Virus record (IMG/VR): IMGVR_UViG_3300032307_000180
Coordinates: 1-64,000 of that record
DNA from: a virus
Strand: one strand, 5' to 3'
DNA: 64,000 nt
Shown here piece by piece: positions 55,782 through 63,932 of the stretch (its first letter is position 1; each line of letters begins with the position of its first letter). Under the pieces are notes generated by a model that saw only the letters and a program-made list of their open reading frames with translations, did not search any database and was not told where the DNA came from. The translations under genes were made by a program, and so were the position numbers.

Positions 55782-55798
55782 TTCCCTATCATAGGGAT
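55782..55798. repeat. 17-bp palindrome, copy 1
   Basis: TTCCCTAT-C-ATAGGGAT, seven of eight arm positions paired. It lies in the only gap in this stretch, between the 55798 stop and the 55750 start. Confidence 0.75.
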
Positions 55799-58062: not shown

Positions 58063-59135
58063 GCCCTCGCAAATAAATAGTTGTTGTCGGTAGCCCACTT
58101 GATGAACTCCTTGCTTGTGCCTACTGTGCTTGCCTTCTTGGTTCGCATCACGCTTGTGGCGAATAAGCCCTGTGCTTCCTTGCTGATACGGCTCATGTAT
58201 TTAACCCAAGCGTTCACGCTGTCCTTCTCAATGCGTTGCACGGCTGAGTAGACCAACATACACACGGCACTCGGTGAATCAGGCACTTTAGTTGTATCAG
58301 GTGCTTTGATGATTGATTCCCAATCAGGCAAGTCGTTCGCGAGTTTGACCATCGCCATCATGTCGTATGTCGCACGCTGACCGATTGTGCCGATAAGAGC
58401 GTGGCTGATGATAGTATCGCCCATGCCCTTGGTCTTACTAAGAATGTCACTAGCCTTATCCATAGAGCGTGGCGTCACAAAGCTAGGGCGTGGCATACGA
58501 GGGTCATAGATATACTCGTTGTCCTTCGGGTCTTGTATATCTTCAAATGACTGGAACATCTGAGGGAACTGCTTAACCGCCAAGATAACTTCGGGCAACA
58601 CACCCGCATCAAGAGCATAGTTTTCAATCCACTCCTCAGCGTTCGGCTTACGCACCTTGACTACTGAGATACGATTGCGAGCATGGGGTGGTAGATTGTC
58701 ACCGATACCCTCGGTGGATAGGTTAGTCGTTGCGAACACAATGCTACCTTTAGGCAGGCTGTATGTGCCAAGCTGTCTTTCCAACATCAAGCGTAAGCAA
58801 GCGTTCATAACTGCCTTACTTGCCTTGCCAATCTCGTCAAGCATCAACACAATCGGCTTGTCAAAGTGAAAGCCAAACTCCTCGTTCGGAATAAAGCTAC
58901 ATACCTCAACACCATCAATGGTGCGAATCTTCGGCACGAGGAAGTCACCCACATCTTTAGTGGTCATGTCGCCATAGCAGTAGTGATACTTGTCGCCTAG
59001 CTTTTCCTTGATTGATTTGAGGATTGATGACTTGCCAATACCCATCTCGCCTTGTGCAAGCACAGTCACCTTGTCACCGATAGCCAAGATTAGGTTAGCC
59101 GTTTCCTGTAATGAAATTGATTTGTATAAGTCCAT
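58059..59135 (-). CDS. MoxR/CobS-like AAA+ ATPase
   Basis: A 358-residue ATPase. Walker A GEMGIGKSS (K35), Walker B IVLMLDEIGKA (D100, E101), sensor 1 FATTN (about 135-138) and a candidate arginine finger in HARNR (R153) are intact. MoxR-family proteins work as chaperones with VWA proteins. Here the VWA gene lies downstream and a DUF3150-like gene upstream, the arrangement of CobS/CobT-like sets reported in phages. Substrate unknown; virion maturation or host takeover is possible. Confidence 0.85.
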   Translation of the reverse strand: MDLYKSISLQETANLILAIGDKVTVLAQGEMGIGKSSILKSIKEKLGDKYHYCYGDMTTKDVGDFLVPKIRTIDGVEVCSFIPNEEFGFHFDKPIVLMLDEIGKASKAVMNACLRLMLERQLGTYSLPKGSIVFATTNLSTEGIGDNLPPHARNRISVVKVRKPNAEEWIENYALDAGVLPEVILAVKQFPQMFQSFEDIQDPKDNEYIYDPRMPRPSFVTPRSMDKASDILSKTKGMGDTIISHALIGTIGQRATYDMMAMVKLANDLPDWESIIKAPDTTKVPDSPSAVCMLVYSAVQRIEKDSVNAWVKYMSRISKEAQGLFATSVMRTKKASTVGTSKEFIKWATDNNYLFARA

Positions 59136-59160
59136 GTTTACTACTCCTTGTCGTGGTTAA

Positions 59161-60039
59161 TTAAAATGCAAACTTGTTTAAAAGACTGTCCACCTTATTC
59201 TTGGTGGCTTTACGCAACTCGTCACTCTCACGCAAACTTTGTGCGTCAATGTGCTTGATGCTTTGTTCTAAGTCATACCTCATCTGTTCAAGCTGAGGGT
59301 CTTTCGTGATGTTCAGGTGCTTCAATACTTGGCATAGCTCAACGGCGTTATCAATCAAGCTATCCCTAAATATTTTTTTGGTGTCACCATCTGCACTACT
59401 CAAGCGTTCGCTCATGTGGGTGAGCTGTTCGTGTAAGCGTGTTTTGGCATCTTGCATGGCTACCTCAACCTTGGACTTGTATGCGTTCTCATAATTCGCA
59501 CGCAACTCCGCCATGCCTGCCTCACCAATGTCCACACGGAAGTCGCCACTCTCAGGCACAGGGCTGAATGAATACAGAAAGCCAAACTTATGGGCAATCT
59601 TATCCACAGGTGGGTAGTCGTCACGATTGAACAGGTCACCTAACTGAAACGCTGACTTCGTGATGAGGGTGTCATACTCCGCCAGAAATGACGTAACCGC
59701 TTGTGTAAACATCTTTTCGTATTCTGTGAGGCGTAGCTTGTAGTCCATGAACAAAGAACTCGGCAACAAGCGAGAGCCTGCATCATTCCAAGGTGAGGTT
59801 TGGGTGTAGTGCCAATTACGCACGGCACTTGCAATCTTGCCAATCTCAGCGAGCTTCTCACTACCTGCCAAAAGATTCTTGTGGTAGTTGCCTGCCTTGG
59901 TCTTGGTCTGCTTGGCTGAATCAATCTCAGCACTCACGGACTTATCTAACTTGCGACCTGTCCACACAGAAATGGAAACATCAACCAACATGGCTGATGA
60001 ACTAATCTTGGAATAGGCATAGTCTTTATCGTTAATCAT
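59161..60039 (-). CDS. DUF3150-like protein associated with MoxR-VWA set
   Basis: A 292-residue helical protein. LVDVSISVWTGRKLDKSVSAEI (about 18-39), then GNYHKNLLAGSEKLAEIGKIASAVRNWHYTQTSPWNDAGSRLLPSSLF (about 51-97) is the pattern I associate with DUF3150, a family found beside MoxR-like ATPases in phages and bacteria. The rest is long coiled helices. It likely links the ATPase and VWA protein. It follows a promoter and palindrome copy 2. Confidence 0.7.
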   Translation of the reverse strand: MINDKDYAYSKISSSAMLVDVSISVWTGRKLDKSVSAEIDSAKQTKTKAGNYHKNLLAGSEKLAEIGKIASAVRNWHYTQTSPWNDAGSRLLPSSLFMDYKLRLTEYEKMFTQAVTSFLAEYDTLITKSAFQLGDLFNRDDYPPVDKIAHKFGFLYSFSPVPESGDFRVDIGEAGMAELRANYENAYKSKVEVAMQDAKTRLHEQLTHMSERLSSADGDTKKIFRDSLIDNAVELCQVLKHLNITKDPQLEQMRYDLEQSIKHIDAQSLRESDELRKATKNKVDSLLNKFAF

Positions 60040-60057
60040 GATTACTTTCCTTAGTTA

Positions 60058-60074
60058 ATCCCTATCATAGGGAA
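60058..60074. repeat. 17-bp palindrome, copy 2
   Basis: ATCCCTAT-C-ATAGGGAA, 19 bases upstream of the DUF3150-like start and centred about +41 from the promoter at 60113. Confidence 0.78.
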
Positions 60075-60112
60075 TTGGTTAAACAAAACATACATAACTC
60101 TACTTATACTAC

Positions 60113-60141
60113 ATTATAACAGGTTTACTTAACAGTATCAA
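60113..60141 (-). promoter_or_regulatory. Sigma-70 promoter for the MoxR-VWA cassette
   Basis: Minus-strand TTGATA (60141-60136), a 17-base spacer, TATAAT (60118-60113), followed by GTAGT. The leader includes palindrome copy 2 and leads to the 60039 start. The same TATAATGTAGT core is found at 61746. Confidence 0.78.
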
Positions 60142-60349
60142 GCCACACCATGAAGCTATACACCAACACCAATGGCAAGCCAACCGCCAACATACCAACC
60201 ACCATCTCAACAAAGAACTTGATGCCCTTCTGAGTATCGGTTTCACAACGCCATATCGGTGTGGCATAGTCGGCAGTCTTGAACGCTTCATCTAGTGAGC
60301 GTGGTGTTGCGTGTAAGTTTTTATACACTTGTCTGTAATCGTTGTTCAT
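60125..60349 (-). CDS. Single-pass membrane protein
   Basis: A 74-residue protein starting at the ATG with GGAAC upstream. A soluble N-terminus (DYRQVYKNLHATPRSLDEAFKTADYATPIW) is followed by a transmembrane helix near the end (about 47-70, FFVEMVVGMLAVGLPLVLVYSFMVW). Its 3' end overlaps the promoter for the next unit. Role unknown. Confidence 0.58.
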   Translation of the reverse strand: MNNDYRQVYKNLHATPRSLDEAFKTADYATPIWRCETDTQKGIKFFVEMVVGMLAVGLPLVLVYSFMVWLDTVK

Positions 60350-60360
60350 GTTCGTTCCTT

Positions 60361-60651
60361 TCATTTAGGTATTTCTAAGTTGTTTGCTTGTATGTAAATG
60401 TCTGCCATCTCAGGCTCAAGCACAGTCACATTGTGTAGGTATAGCTCAGGCAAAGGTAGCTTAGTCCATCTACATTCTTCACCAATCCTAACTGGGGTTA
60501 TCACTCTGATTGGGTAGCTTGGTTTCCATGCATCGAGGTAATGAAGTTTAGAACCCGCAAAGTTTATCTCTGAGATTCTGCACAGTCTGTCATCACCCCT
60601 AAACTTAACCAAGCACCACTTACCCACTAGGTCTTGCATCTCAAAGTTCAT
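60361..60651 (-). CDS. Hypothetical beta-rich protein
   Basis: A 96-residue protein with beta strands (KWCLVKFRGDDRLCRISEIN, IRVITPVRIGEECRW) and three cysteines. It overlaps the upstream gene by four bases. It resembles small SH3-like early proteins. Function unknown. Confidence 0.58.
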   Translation of the reverse strand: MNFEMQDLVGKWCLVKFRGDDRLCRISEINFAGSKLHYLDAWKPSYPIRVITPVRIGEECRWTKLPLPELYLHNVTVLEPEMADIYIQANNLEIPK

Positions 60652-60902
60652 GACATACTTCCTCCTTCATTGGCTTTTAACCATAGGTCAATTACTGCTT
60701 CGTCCACAAAAATTAAATCTTCTACTAACTCGTAGCGAATATACCCGCCCCAATCCCATACGGGCTCATCATAATCAGTAAGTGCGGGCATCTTGATATA
60801 TGTGTTCACCGCCAACCATCTGTAATGGTCGGTTTCGTAATCATAGACAGTTCTCACCAACGATTTACCCACCATAGCTAGGCTATGCTTCTTCACTTTC
60901 AC
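60648..60902 (-). CDS. Hypothetical protein
   Basis: An 84-residue protein rich in Tyr, Trp, Asp and Val (TVYDYETDHYRWLAVNTYIKM ... WDWGGYIRYELVEDLIFVDEAVIDLW). It overlaps neighbours at both ends. No recognised family. Confidence 0.57.
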   Translation of the reverse strand: MKVKKHSLAMVGKSLVRTVYDYETDHYRWLAVNTYIKMPALTDYDEPVWDWGGYIRYELVEDLIFVDEAVIDLWLKANEGGSMS

Positions 60903-61086
60903 GCTTACCCCCTAACTCATACCCAAATACAAAATACAAGGGATTGAATGACTTGATGACTTCACGCTTTTGGTGTGGGGTGTGGGCGTTCAAGAACTCA
61001 GTCAGCATACGCATGGACTGTTGTTGTCTGATTTTGTTGGTCTTACGCTGAGCCCACTCGCCATGTCGGCTTTTGTTTTCACTCAT
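60883..61086 (-). CDS. Small basic hypothetical protein
   Basis: A 67-residue protein with a basic N-terminal half (HGEWAQRKTNKIRQQQSMRM) and a helix-rich centre. It overlaps the upstream gene by four bases and the downstream one by 20. A nucleic-acid contact is possible from charge only. Confidence 0.57.
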   Translation of the reverse strand: MSENKSRHGEWAQRKTNKIRQQQSMRMLTEFLNAHTPHQKREVIKSFNPLYFVFGYELGGKRESEEA

Positions 61087-61298
61087 TTGATTAGCCCTCC
61101 TTTGTTGTTGATGCCCTTGAGGTCATCACGATTGAAACACGCAACATAGTTGCTCTTGTGCATAGGCACTACTGTGAACTTGCGTTCGTGTGCTAGCTCG
61201 TCACCACAGTTTAGGCATACCGCTATACCTAGCTTGGTGAATCTTTCAGGCGGGAAAATTCCATCGCCACATATCTTACAGGTCGGTTTGAACTTCAT
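61083..61298 (-). CDS. Small zinc-ribbon protein
   Basis: A 71-residue protein with C7-x2-C10 and C28-x2-C31, a complete zinc-ribbon set, followed by a basic part (HERKFTVVPMHKSNYVACF). It is the first gene after a leader of about 440 bases, with GGAAAGGAAG as ribosome site. It could be an early regulator that binds RNA polymerase or DNA. Confidence 0.68.
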   Translation of the reverse strand: MKFKPTCKICGDGIFPPERFTKLGIAVCLNCGDELAHERKFTVVPMHKSNYVACFNRDDLKGINNKGGLIK

Positions 61299-61738
61299 GC
61301 TTACTTCCTTTCCTTTGTCGTTAAAAAATTTAAGTGAACGCTCGGCTGTCCAAGCGTTCTATAAATCTTCTATTGTTTGCCCTCTGCTGTTTTCTCGCAG
61401 TTCTTGTCAGAGGTTCGGGCGTGGGTCGGTAATGTGCATGGTCACATAGCTTGTCGGTATCTTAGGGTCGGTGCGTCACGCACTACAAACCTGCCAATAC
61501 AAACATCTATCTGCACACTAGAAACCGCAAGGATACTGCTCGGTCATGGTTTGATGAGCGTGGATAAAAACACACTGCCTCATCATGTTCCGCTTAGTTA
61601 GAACCCAAGCCTACGCCTACCTTGCACCACATTGTTTAGTGGCATTTGAGCGTGTTGTTAAAGAGGGTTGGCTACTACATCTTGGGCTATTCCCTATCAT
61701 AGGGATTCGGCTACACCTAAACGGACTTCTACCAACTA
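61299..61738 (-). promoter_or_regulatory. Long structured leader (5' UTR) of the zinc-ribbon operon
   Basis: No gene on either strand is credible. On the minus-strand transcript, TGATGAG/CTCATCA arms (61552-61585), GTGCG-tca-CGCAC (61471-61483) and GAACGCT/AGCGTTC (61336-61359) form hairpins. The last is followed by ACTTAAATTTTTT, an attenuator-like T-run just before the first gene. Confidence 0.5.
61690..61706. repeat. 17-bp palindrome, copy 3
   Basis: TTCCCTAT-C-ATAGGGAT in the leader, centred about +41 from the promoter at 61746, the same spacing as copy 2. Confidence 0.78.
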
Positions 61739-61745
61739 TAACTAC

Positions 61746-61774
61746 ATTATACGCTCTTACACTAGGTTTGTCAA
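61746..61774 (-). promoter_or_regulatory. Perfect consensus sigma-70 promoter
   Basis: Minus-strand TTGACA (61774-61769), exactly 17 bases, TATAAT (61751-61746), then GTAGT. It is among the strongest promoters in the window by sequence and probably the main early leftward start for 61298 to about 60125. Confidence 0.85.
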
Positions 61775-61817: not shown

Positions 61818-62057
61818 CTAATACTTGCGGGTGTAGTCGTTGCGTTTGTTTTGTTCGGGTGCAACTAAATCTCTGCCTGTCACGCCGTTCTTGAATCGTT
61901 TTAGGACTGTGTAGTATTTCAGGTCAAAGTCTTCAGCCCATTGTTTGATTGACCGAACCTCACCATCAATCTCGGCGAAGAATGATAGTTTTGCACCACG
62001 CTTCTTCTGCTTGGACTTTTTGATGAGGTCGGCTAATTGTTTTGTGGTGCGGTGCAT
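61818..62057 (-). CDS. Small basic HTH-like protein
   Basis: A 79-residue protein starting at the ATG in the TGATG overlap. A lysine-rich N-terminus is followed by DGEVRSIKQWAEDFDLKYYTVLKRFKNG (about 33-60), the HTH-like repeat often found near homing endonucleases and in phage regulators. It is co-transcribed with the ribbon-helix-helix gene. DNA binding is likely; the target is unknown. Confidence 0.6.
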   Translation of the reverse strand: MHRTTKQLADLIKKSKQKKRGAKLSFFAEIDGEVRSIKQWAEDFDLKYYTVLKRFKNGVTGRDLVAPEQNKRNDYTRKY

Positions 62058-62395
62058 CAGTAATCCCACTCACTTGCAATTTGGTTTAGTTCATCTTGGT
62101 TCATTTGGTTGCTTGGTGATTGTGGTCGGTTCATTGGCATGCCACGCATCTCTTGTTCACGCATGAACTTGTATTCTTGTGCGGTCATTGGTTTGCGTTG
62201 AACCATTGGTGCGTTGGTTTGGGTCGTCAAAAAGATTTGGTTTTGCTGAATGTATTGAACGATTAAATCTCGCACAACTGTGCTTACTGATTTGTATTGG
62301 GCGTCTGAAATTGTGGTGAGTTGGGCTAGGACTGGCTCAGGGATTCTGAGGTTCAATACTGCGTTGTTATGTGATTTGCGGGTGCGTTTGGTCAT
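62057..62395 (-). CDS. Ribbon-helix-helix (Arc/CopG-type) DNA-binding protein
   Basis: A 112-residue protein. Residues 11-50 (NAVLNLRIPEPVLAQLTTIS ... SVSTVVRDLIVQYI) are a ribbon-helix-helix: a beta strand that enters the major groove, then two helices. A Gln/Met/Pro-rich tail follows. Such dimers bind short palindromes. It is the only RHH protein seen here and lies near palindrome copies 3 and 4, so it is a candidate ligand. An inverted repeat GCATAC/GTATGC lies 30-48 bases upstream of its ATG. Confidence 0.72.
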   Translation of the reverse strand: MTKRTRKSHNNAVLNLRIPEPVLAQLTTISDAQYKSVSTVVRDLIVQYIQQNQIFLTTQTNAPMVQRKPMTAQEYKFMREQEMRGMPMNRPQSPSNQMNQDELNQIASEWDY

Positions 62396-62494: not shown

Positions 62495-62511
62495 ATCCCT
62501 ATGATAGGGAA
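62495..62511. repeat. 17-bp palindrome, copy 4
   Basis: ATCCCTAT-G-ATAGGGAA, 100 bases upstream of the RHH gene and at the edge of the origin-like region. Confidence 0.78.
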
Positions 62512-63001: not shown

Positions 63002-63025
63002 AAAAAACCCCGCCTGAGCGGGGTT
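63002..63025 (-). terminator. Rho-independent terminator after the 63044 gene
   Basis: AACCCCGC/GCGGGGTT with a four-base loop, and TTTTTTA on the minus strand. It closes the single-gene unit of 63044-63595. Confidence 0.85.
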
Positions 63026-63027
63026 GA

Positions 63028-63044
63028 ATACCTATGATAGGGAT
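63028..63044. repeat. 17-bp palindrome, copy 5
   Basis: ATACCTAT-G-ATAGGGAT, one arm mismatch, lying between the 63044 gene's stop and its terminator. Confidence 0.7.
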
Positions 63045-63595
63045 TACAAGTAATTAGCTGATACTAGCAATTCAGTCACCCATTCTTGAACCTCATCAGG
63101 TGCAGATTCAAATTCAGAATGATTGTAGAATTTTGCCAAAACATCAGCGATAGCAGGTTCAGTCTTATCCCCGCCATTTTTCTTGGCATTGGTTTTGAAA
63201 TCAAAAGATTTAACAGGCTTGCCAGTATTAACCACTTTAAAAAATAGCTCGTAATAGTTTTGAGCTGTCTTAGGTGCAAGCCCGCTCTTTTCGCATTGGT
63301 CTAAAAATGCTTTGCGGTTCGCCATTGAGCTTGGGTCTTTTTTACGCCCGTCCAATAAACGCACGCCCGCTTGGTTGAGGTTGATAGCTGACTTGTTGAA
63401 CAAGTCTAATTGCTTAGCTTGCTCTGCCTTCGCCTTATCGCCACTGGCACAAGCAATCGCACTAGCTGAGATGAGGTTGAGGGTTTCAACTGCCGTGATG
63501 CTTGGCTTGCTTGATGTGGTCTTAACTGTTGCACCTTGTGATGTGGTCTTAACAGTTTCAACAAGAGATACGATAGCGTTATTTGATTTAGTCAT
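63044..63595 (-). CDS. Hypothetical early protein, own transcription unit
   Basis: A 183-residue protein. I choose the ATG at 63595 (MTKSNNAIVSLVETV), with GGAAAGG about ten bases upstream; an in-frame ATG at 63613 would add six residues. The Ser/Thr-rich N-terminus is followed by helical parts (VRLLDGRKKDPSSMANRKAFLDQCEKSGLAPKTAQNYYELFFKVV). The latter resembles a phage replication or integrase-SAM-like N-terminal helix bundle with KTAQNYYELF. It has its own promoter and two terminators, so it may be the first protein made after infection. Function unknown. Confidence 0.62.
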   Translation of the reverse strand: MTKSNNAIVSLVETVKTTSQGATVKTTSSKPSITAVETLNLISASAIACASGDKAKAEQAKQLDLFNKSAINLNQAGVRLLDGRKKDPSSMANRKAFLDQCEKSGLAPKTAQNYYELFFKVVNTGKPVKSFDFKTNAKKNGGDKTEPAIADVLAKFYNHSEFESAPDEVQEWVTELLVSANYL

Positions 63596-63654: not shown

Positions 63655-63683
63655 ATTATTACATATTATATTAACCTTGTCAA
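63655..63683 (-). promoter_or_regulatory. Sigma-70 promoter for the 63595 gene
   Basis: Minus-strand TTGACA (63683-63678), 17-base spacer, AATAAT (63660-63655), then GTAGT, the same downstream core as the promoters at 60113 and 61746. The leader is about 50 bases. Confidence 0.72.
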
Positions 63684-63932
63684 GCGTGGGGGTATTACGC
63701 CCAATCCCTATGATAGGGATTACAAAACGCAAAGCCCTACCCTCATACGAAATTTACAAAGCCCATGATAGTAACCCCACCCCCCAAATTTTTAATTGGG
63801 TCCCCCAGGCTCACGCATATACTGAGTTTTACACGTTAGACTTGCAAATTTTTGACCAGCCCCCTCCCCCCTCTTGATTTGTTAGCGTTCACTAACTTAT
63901 CTGGCTAGCGAAACCCACCCCCTTCATTTTGC
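63684..63932. other. Divergent control region without genes
   Basis: It holds palindrome copy 6, several cytosine runs (63778-63788, 63805-63810, 63860-63871) and an inverted repeat GTTAG-cgttca-CTAAC (63881-63896). A plus-strand frame of 66 codons at 63677 is low-complexity and not credible. The region may contain regulatory or packaging sites. Confidence 0.5.
63704..63720. repeat. 17-bp palindrome, copy 6 (perfect)
   Basis: ATCCCTAT-G-ATAGGGAT, both arms of eight bases exact. It is 20 bases upstream of the -35 box of the leftward promoter at 63655. Confidence 0.82.

Follow-up and report, generated by a model that had tools for sequence, protein, structure and literature searches.

The short palindromes repeated through the early region of this phage genome appear, from the sequences compared here, to be sites at which a hitherto undescribed DNA-binding protein of the phage docks; the version of the palindrome found in each group of relatives (its dialect) appears to be matched to changes in that protein. 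The window analysed comprises 64,000 of the 66,044 bases of one uncultured virus record, with structural genes running rightward and replication and early genes running leftward. The reading that we consider probable is that the palindromes are dispersed operators of a regulator encoded by the first early gene, which would bind them as a dimer and act mainly by blocking transcription elongation. The features of the window are as follows.

55782–55798, no strand: predicted palindromic operator at the gene junction 56211/55750, overlapping the stop codon of the upstream gene
59161–60039, minus strand: 292-aa DUF3150-like gene downstream of P3, an anchor for finding relatives
60058–60074, no strand: predicted palindromic operator with the type A core TCCCTATSATAGGGA, centre at P3 +40, within the leader of the 292-aa gene; relatives carry another palindrome at the same place
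60113–60141, minus strand: sigma-70 promoter P3, TTGATA-N17-TATAATGTAGT (−10 at 60113–60118, −35 at 60136–60141), kept in relatives
61690–61706, no strand: predicted palindromic operator within a leader, centre at P2 +41
61746–61774, minus strand: sigma-70 promoter P2, TTGACA-N17-TATAATGTAGT (−10 at 61746–61751, −35 at 61769–61774)
62057–62395, minus strand: ribbon-helix-helix-like protein (weak match), rejected as reader of the palindromes
62495–62511, no strand: predicted palindromic operator upstream of the ribbon-helix-helix gene
63002–63026, minus strand: candidate intrinsic-terminator-like hairpin after the regulator gene, read from the sequence
63028–63044, no strand: predicted palindromic operator with one mismatch, abutting the regulator stop codon just before the terminator
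63044–63595, minus strand (alternative ORF start 63613): proposed cognate DNA-binding regulator, 183 aa, first early gene, with an HTH-like segment followed by a basic arm
63655–63683, minus strand: sigma-70 promoter P1 of the regulator gene, TTGACA-N17-AATAATGTAGT (−10 at 63655–63660)
63704–63720, no strand: predicted palindromic operator with its centre at −64 relative to P1 (upstream of it), in the gap that separates the leftward early transcription unit from the rightward late one

The type A core TCCCTATSATAGGGA occurs at six places in the window, starting at 55782, 60058, 61690, 62495, 63028, and 63704. When the whole window was searched with the pattern ATCCCTATSATAGGGAW at up to three mismatches, 12 strand-matches were obtained, corresponding to these six places (0.19 expected from shuffles), and no seventh copy was found elsewhere in the window at this threshold. 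The copies are perfect or near-perfect palindromes and hence symmetric, they are confined to the early region, and each of the six is centred between genes, in a region of which 20% is non-coding (naive P ~7e-5). The copies listed in the original prediction were thus correct, but its list was incomplete, having missed those at 55782–55798, 62495–62511, and 63028–63044 (the last with one mismatch). Its three promoters with a shared core are genuine sigma-70 sites, and exact matches to ACTACATTATW occur in the window solely at P1, P2, and P3. We note separately that GTAGT after the −10 element is conserved at many early promoters of types A–F (60113, 61746, and 63655 in the window, and in relatives), which exceeds what sigma-70 needs.

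For all spacing figures, the start was placed 7 nt after the −10 element. The palindrome that follows P3 has its centre at +40 and the one after P2 at +41, close to the 41–42 bases given previously, and the palindrome at 63704–63720 does lie upstream of the P1 −35 element (centre −64). A search for this geometry in relatives, however, found variable spacing, the very outcome that the original prediction had set against its proposal of a fixed geometry with a constant +41 position. Specifically, in relatives with recognisable promoters, the centre of the promoter-proximal palindrome ranges from +30.5 to +51 (often +37 to +41), a variation of about 20 bp; the closest relative has +35 at P3, where the window has +40; and many copies in the relatives sit at gene junctions, away from any strong promoter. 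Since the arrangement recurs while its spacing is loose, these data speak for an obstacle lying downstream and not for a mechanism that depends on strict phasing. None of the promoter-proximal palindromes, in the window or in relatives, lies over a −35 or −10 element, which bears out the earlier view that simple promoter occlusion is not involved, and a lambda-like promoter-occluding operator was rejected for the same reason.

The first early gene is arranged differently, with the palindrome mostly upstream of its promoter (−52 to −116 in the window and relatives), except that two dialect-D loci (L083 and L104) have a site at about +39 of the regulator promoter. In addition, a copy 8–10 nt past the regulator stop codon recurs in types A, B, C, D, and F and in several of type H. 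The upstream site brings in the possibility that the regulator does read the palindromes, but as a timing switch or activator, either for an early-to-middle change or at its own promoter from about −64. A position of −64 in the window, and of −52 to −70 in several relatives, is near that of a class I activator. Nevertheless, the distance varies (types B, C, and F have −85 to −116), and the majority of sites follow a promoter or occupy a gene junction, positions from which activation is unlikely; we regard an activator as improbable. An obstacle to early elongation remains the best fit to the placement of the sites.

To place the window among its relatives, we collected 132 loci through two anchors, the 292-aa gene and a MoxR-like ATPase. 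A palindrome family repeated at least three times and found de novo was present in 117 of the 132 loci, compared with 7 of 132 Markov-simulated controls; because a locus is one fetched stretch and some contigs give two overlapping loci, neither 117 nor 132 should be taken as a number of independent phages. Each subgroup of relatives has its own palindrome sequence, giving at least 11 operator sequences:

Dialect A (window): TCCCTAT.ATAGGGA
Dialect B: TCTAGAC..GTCTAGA
Dialect C: TCCCTAC..GTAGGGA
Dialect D: TCGGGAC.GTCCCGA
Dialect E: TCCGTAA..TTACGGA
Dialect F: TCGTTAC..GTAACGA
Dialect G: TTCGTAC.GTACGAA
Dialect H: TTCATAC.GTATGAA
Dialect I: TTCATAT.ATATGAA
Dialect J: TTCCCAC.GTGGGAA
Dialect K: TACTGTC.GACAGTA

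Different dialects fill matching positions, such as the leader of the 292-aa gene, the flanks of the regulator gene, and the ATPase/VWA junction. Even phages that are 93–95% identical over kilobases carry different dialects, and when their orthologous sites are aligned, the flanks are near-identical whereas the palindrome core is changed on both arms. Unrelated contigs with an exact type A palindrome (L006–L015 and others) were set aside as chance occurrences, being single copies in different contexts.

Other palindromes were seen among the collected loci. In L153–L182 (e.g., L167:4018–4033), one gene after another has its Shine-Dalgarno sequence and start codon overlapped by ATTAACA..TGTTAAT (TTAACAGGAGTTAATAAATG), and a different gene is the first early one; this dialect “L” was excluded from the regulator analysis. 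In L057–L090 (e.g., L062:7343–7528 and L082:293–669), TGCACCA...TGGTGCA and ATGTTGC...GCAACAT are clustered at intervals of tens of bases, an arrangement more reminiscent of an origin or enhancer than of dispersed operators. The regulator was absent from loci with TGCACCA, ATGTTGC, TTTCACA, or TTTAAAC palindromes.

The symmetric change of both arms bears on what kind of element the palindromes are, a choice between RNA and DNA that the original prediction had left undecided. As RNA hairpins in leaders and junctions, they could control processing, stability, or translation; 6-bp hairpins can form, and the dialect-B leader folds well (z −3.7). The type A hairpins, however, are ordinary (z −0.7 and −1.6), and palindrome copies also occur upstream of promoters. 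Moreover, both members of the innermost pair, separated by a single nucleotide, switch in concert between dialects: A and I have T-N-A, and G, H, and J have C-N-G. With a centre of 1 nt (or 2 nt), this pair cannot form in a hairpin. Because the innermost pair is nonetheless kept symmetric, copies lie upstream of promoters, and the palindrome co-varies with an HTH-like protein segment (see below), the evidence favours a DNA element, and we give the hairpin explanation a very small chance. Altogether, the earlier suggestion of a roadblock or an RNA/DNA element survives in a broader form, as a DNA element that would block early elongation, without the exact +41 position. We also rejected N4-type hairpin promoters: folding of the palindrome with a loop of 3 nt is feasible, but the early genes have clear sigma-70 promoters, and the centre base of the palindrome points in both directions. 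The 1830-aa virion gene, considered in the same context, has no PHROGs family match.

The protein whose changes follow the dialect is the product of the first early gene, a family of about 160–250 aa found in 64 loci across dialects A–K. Nearest-neighbour agreement with the dialect reached 39.7/41 for its HTH-like segment, compared with 31.5/41 for each of the N- and C-terminal parts of the same protein outside that segment. Four other proteins gave 29/41 (DUF3150), 28/37 (MoxR), 18/32 (terminase), and 25/39 (a fourth protein). In sliding windows, agreement peaked at 0.96 at the HTH segment, while windows of control proteins averaged 0.50–0.63 and at best reached 0.80. The HTH segment and arm are split by dialect, with ‘KKTAQNYLS..WGGTK’ in J, ‘KTYLPTF’ in G, ‘VYL.TF’ in H of the same subclade, and ‘WNPAQS’ in I. 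The strongest column corresponds to window residue T141 (189-aa numbering), which is R in G (TTCGTAC) and H (TTCATAC), Q in I (TTCATAT), and K in J (TTCCCAC), the residue–dialect z-scores being taken from label shuffles that ignore relatedness. Within the KxYLP subclade, the recognition helix has T with TTCGTAC and V with TTCATAC.

Further contigs behaved in the same way. The dialect predicted from the segment agreed with the palindromes present in 13 of 13 contigs unused in pattern discovery, which were retrieved with regulator queries, several being near-identical to training proteins and six showing only one or two sites in the stretch fetched. Three regulators (L260, L261, and L266) have 45–51% overall identity, yet carry J-like segments together with J palindromes. 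Finally, record G009 (of L150) contains the regulator in two variants, with I sites on the flanks of the first and J sites on those of the second; its ends (59095–60129 and 1–1200) carry two versions of the regulator region with a shared identical stretch, and it probably represents two co-existing strains merged in assembly. It therefore serves solely as evidence that variant and dialect go together. Taken together, these sequence comparisons make the pairing of regulator and operator well supported.

The ribbon-helix-helix (RHH) protein at 62057–62395 was the other candidate reader, given that RHH repressors bind palindromes and that its gene, with a weak RHH match, has a palindrome about 100 bp upstream. 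No RHH relative was detected in dialects G–K, though, which have both palindromes and regulator. Furthermore, L104 belongs to dialect D while its RHH protein is nearer to that of dialect E (61% compared with 47–49%), and two dialect-B phages share 91% in the regulator and 37% in RHH. As it does not track the dialect and was not detected in G–K, the RHH protein was rejected, and we consider this assignment highly improbable. As a separate observation, the RHH-like gene is followed by a small gene (61818–62069, with an HNH-associated PHROGs match), and the two are found with dialects A and C–F; RHH relatives are also found in B.

The favoured reader, the first-early-gene product, belongs to no Pfam or PHROGs family, and a profile search of solved structures with it found no match. 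Likewise, tblastn with two members of its family found no relative in 50,697 phage records. AlphaFold2 models of moderate confidence (pLDDT 77.5 and 81.4, pTM 0.50) predict a long N-terminal helix, then, at the covarying segment, two helices connected by a short turn, and beyond these a basic stretch modelled with low confidence; Foldseek with these models gave no match at E 0.001 in PDB or viral models.

The placement of the sites, their set-wise replacement in relatives, and their co-variation with the HTH segment are what lead us to an operator reading, from which we infer binding, dimerisation, repression, and the elongation block. In the mechanism that we propose, a symmetric and probably dimeric regulator would bind each palindrome through its HTH-like segment and basic arm, and would be expected to bind the type A core TCCCTATSATAGGGA better than TTCCCACNGTGGGAA. 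Bound about 30–50 bp past early promoters and at gene junctions of the early operons, it would stall host RNA polymerase during elongation, so that early transcription is limited or shut off while −35 and −10 stay uncovered. The regulator's own promoter in the window would stay free, the nearby palindromes being upstream of P1 and directly after the gene; such a free promoter is not universal, as the dialect-D relatives with a site near +39 illustrate. The placement would also suit a protein that attenuates modestly, activates something else, or organises the DNA.

The dispersed sites could alternatively serve DNA partition, replication control, or packaging, in a parS-like or iteron-like manner. 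Plasmid-like phages such as N15 do have dispersed identical sites bound by a phage protein. Against this, no ParA-like ATPase was found in 18 records, and the sites are at promoters and gene junctions, in the window only within the early region, so that such a role seems very unlikely; the partition or plasmid-prophage reading was rejected, neither ParA nor integrase having been detected in the 18 records. More broadly, no tyrosine integrase or serine recombinase was detected in these records, and scans of GTDB genomes gave no integrated copy, with no hit for the 292-aa protein and only three phage-like contigs in metagenome bins for the ATPase. Lysogeny is thus not indicated, though it may proceed by another route. 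ATPase-encoding contigs L244, L245, and L246 come from metagenome bins with the labels beta proteobacterium and Methylophilaceae, which hints at freshwater betaproteobacteria as hosts.

For the dispersed operators, we propose a role in shutting off or damping early genes, with superinfection immunity as a possible second use that may drive dialect change. An undescribed phage protein family is here linked to at least 11 operator sequences in otherwise near-identical natural variants, which makes the DNA-recognition rules of the regulator readable and testable. The result is an immunity-like, dialect-switching operator network in phages with no integrase detected, and it raises the question of why apparently non-lysogenising phages keep and diversify such a network.

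Our search of a library of papers for similar systems in lytic phages found none. In comparison with the Arc/Mnt/CopG RHH repressors, a weakly matching RHH protein is encoded beside one palindrome here, but dialect tracking is lacking. Planktothrix phage Pag-Yong1 (OL906435.1; L050/L051) is a distant relative, with 30% in the 292-aa protein. It carries some 33 near-copies of CGGTTCAGNCTGAACCG. Of these, 18 are intergenic, non-coding DNA amounting to 8.7%; among the early intergenic gaps that exceed 15 bp, 17 of 31 contain a near-copy. In contrast to the window, this phage also has copies within genes and in its late region, and profile comparison of its first early gene with the regulator detected no relation.

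The Streptomyces phage phiC31 has conserved, symmetric inverted repeats over its early region that are bound by one repressor; it is temperate, with a serine integrase, and its repressor is larger than the regulator described here. The dispersal of symmetric inverted repeats in the early region is shared, whereas the many dialects with a tracked recognition segment are particular to the present system.

Mycobacteriophage L5 and its cluster A relatives carry many copies of a short site at promoter and short intergenic positions, and cluster A groups have their own site sequence, matched by their own repressor (PMC6550527, PMC9283540). These stoperators are 13-bp, asymmetric, and one-way, and are bound by a two-domain monomeric repressor in temperate phages (PMC6550527, PMC9283540). 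Our system differs in that its sites are symmetric palindromes of 15–22 bp with no single orientation, in that its regulator has no match to the L5 gp71/TipsytheTRex repressor in solved-structure profile, Pfam, PHROGs, or fold searches, and in that no tyrosine integrase, serine recombinase, or ParA was detected (18 records). It resembles the stoperators in having many copies of one short site at promoter and short intergenic positions, with a group-specific sequence matched to a protein, and its positions, between +30 and +51 or at gene junctions, may point to an L5-type elongation block. A more tentative extension, which we think possible though doubtful, is that a new protein family sets stoperator-like blocks across the early genes of a large, apparently non-integrating phage group and that dialects diversify because the regulator also shuts down sibling phages competing within one cell, giving superinfection immunity without lysogeny.
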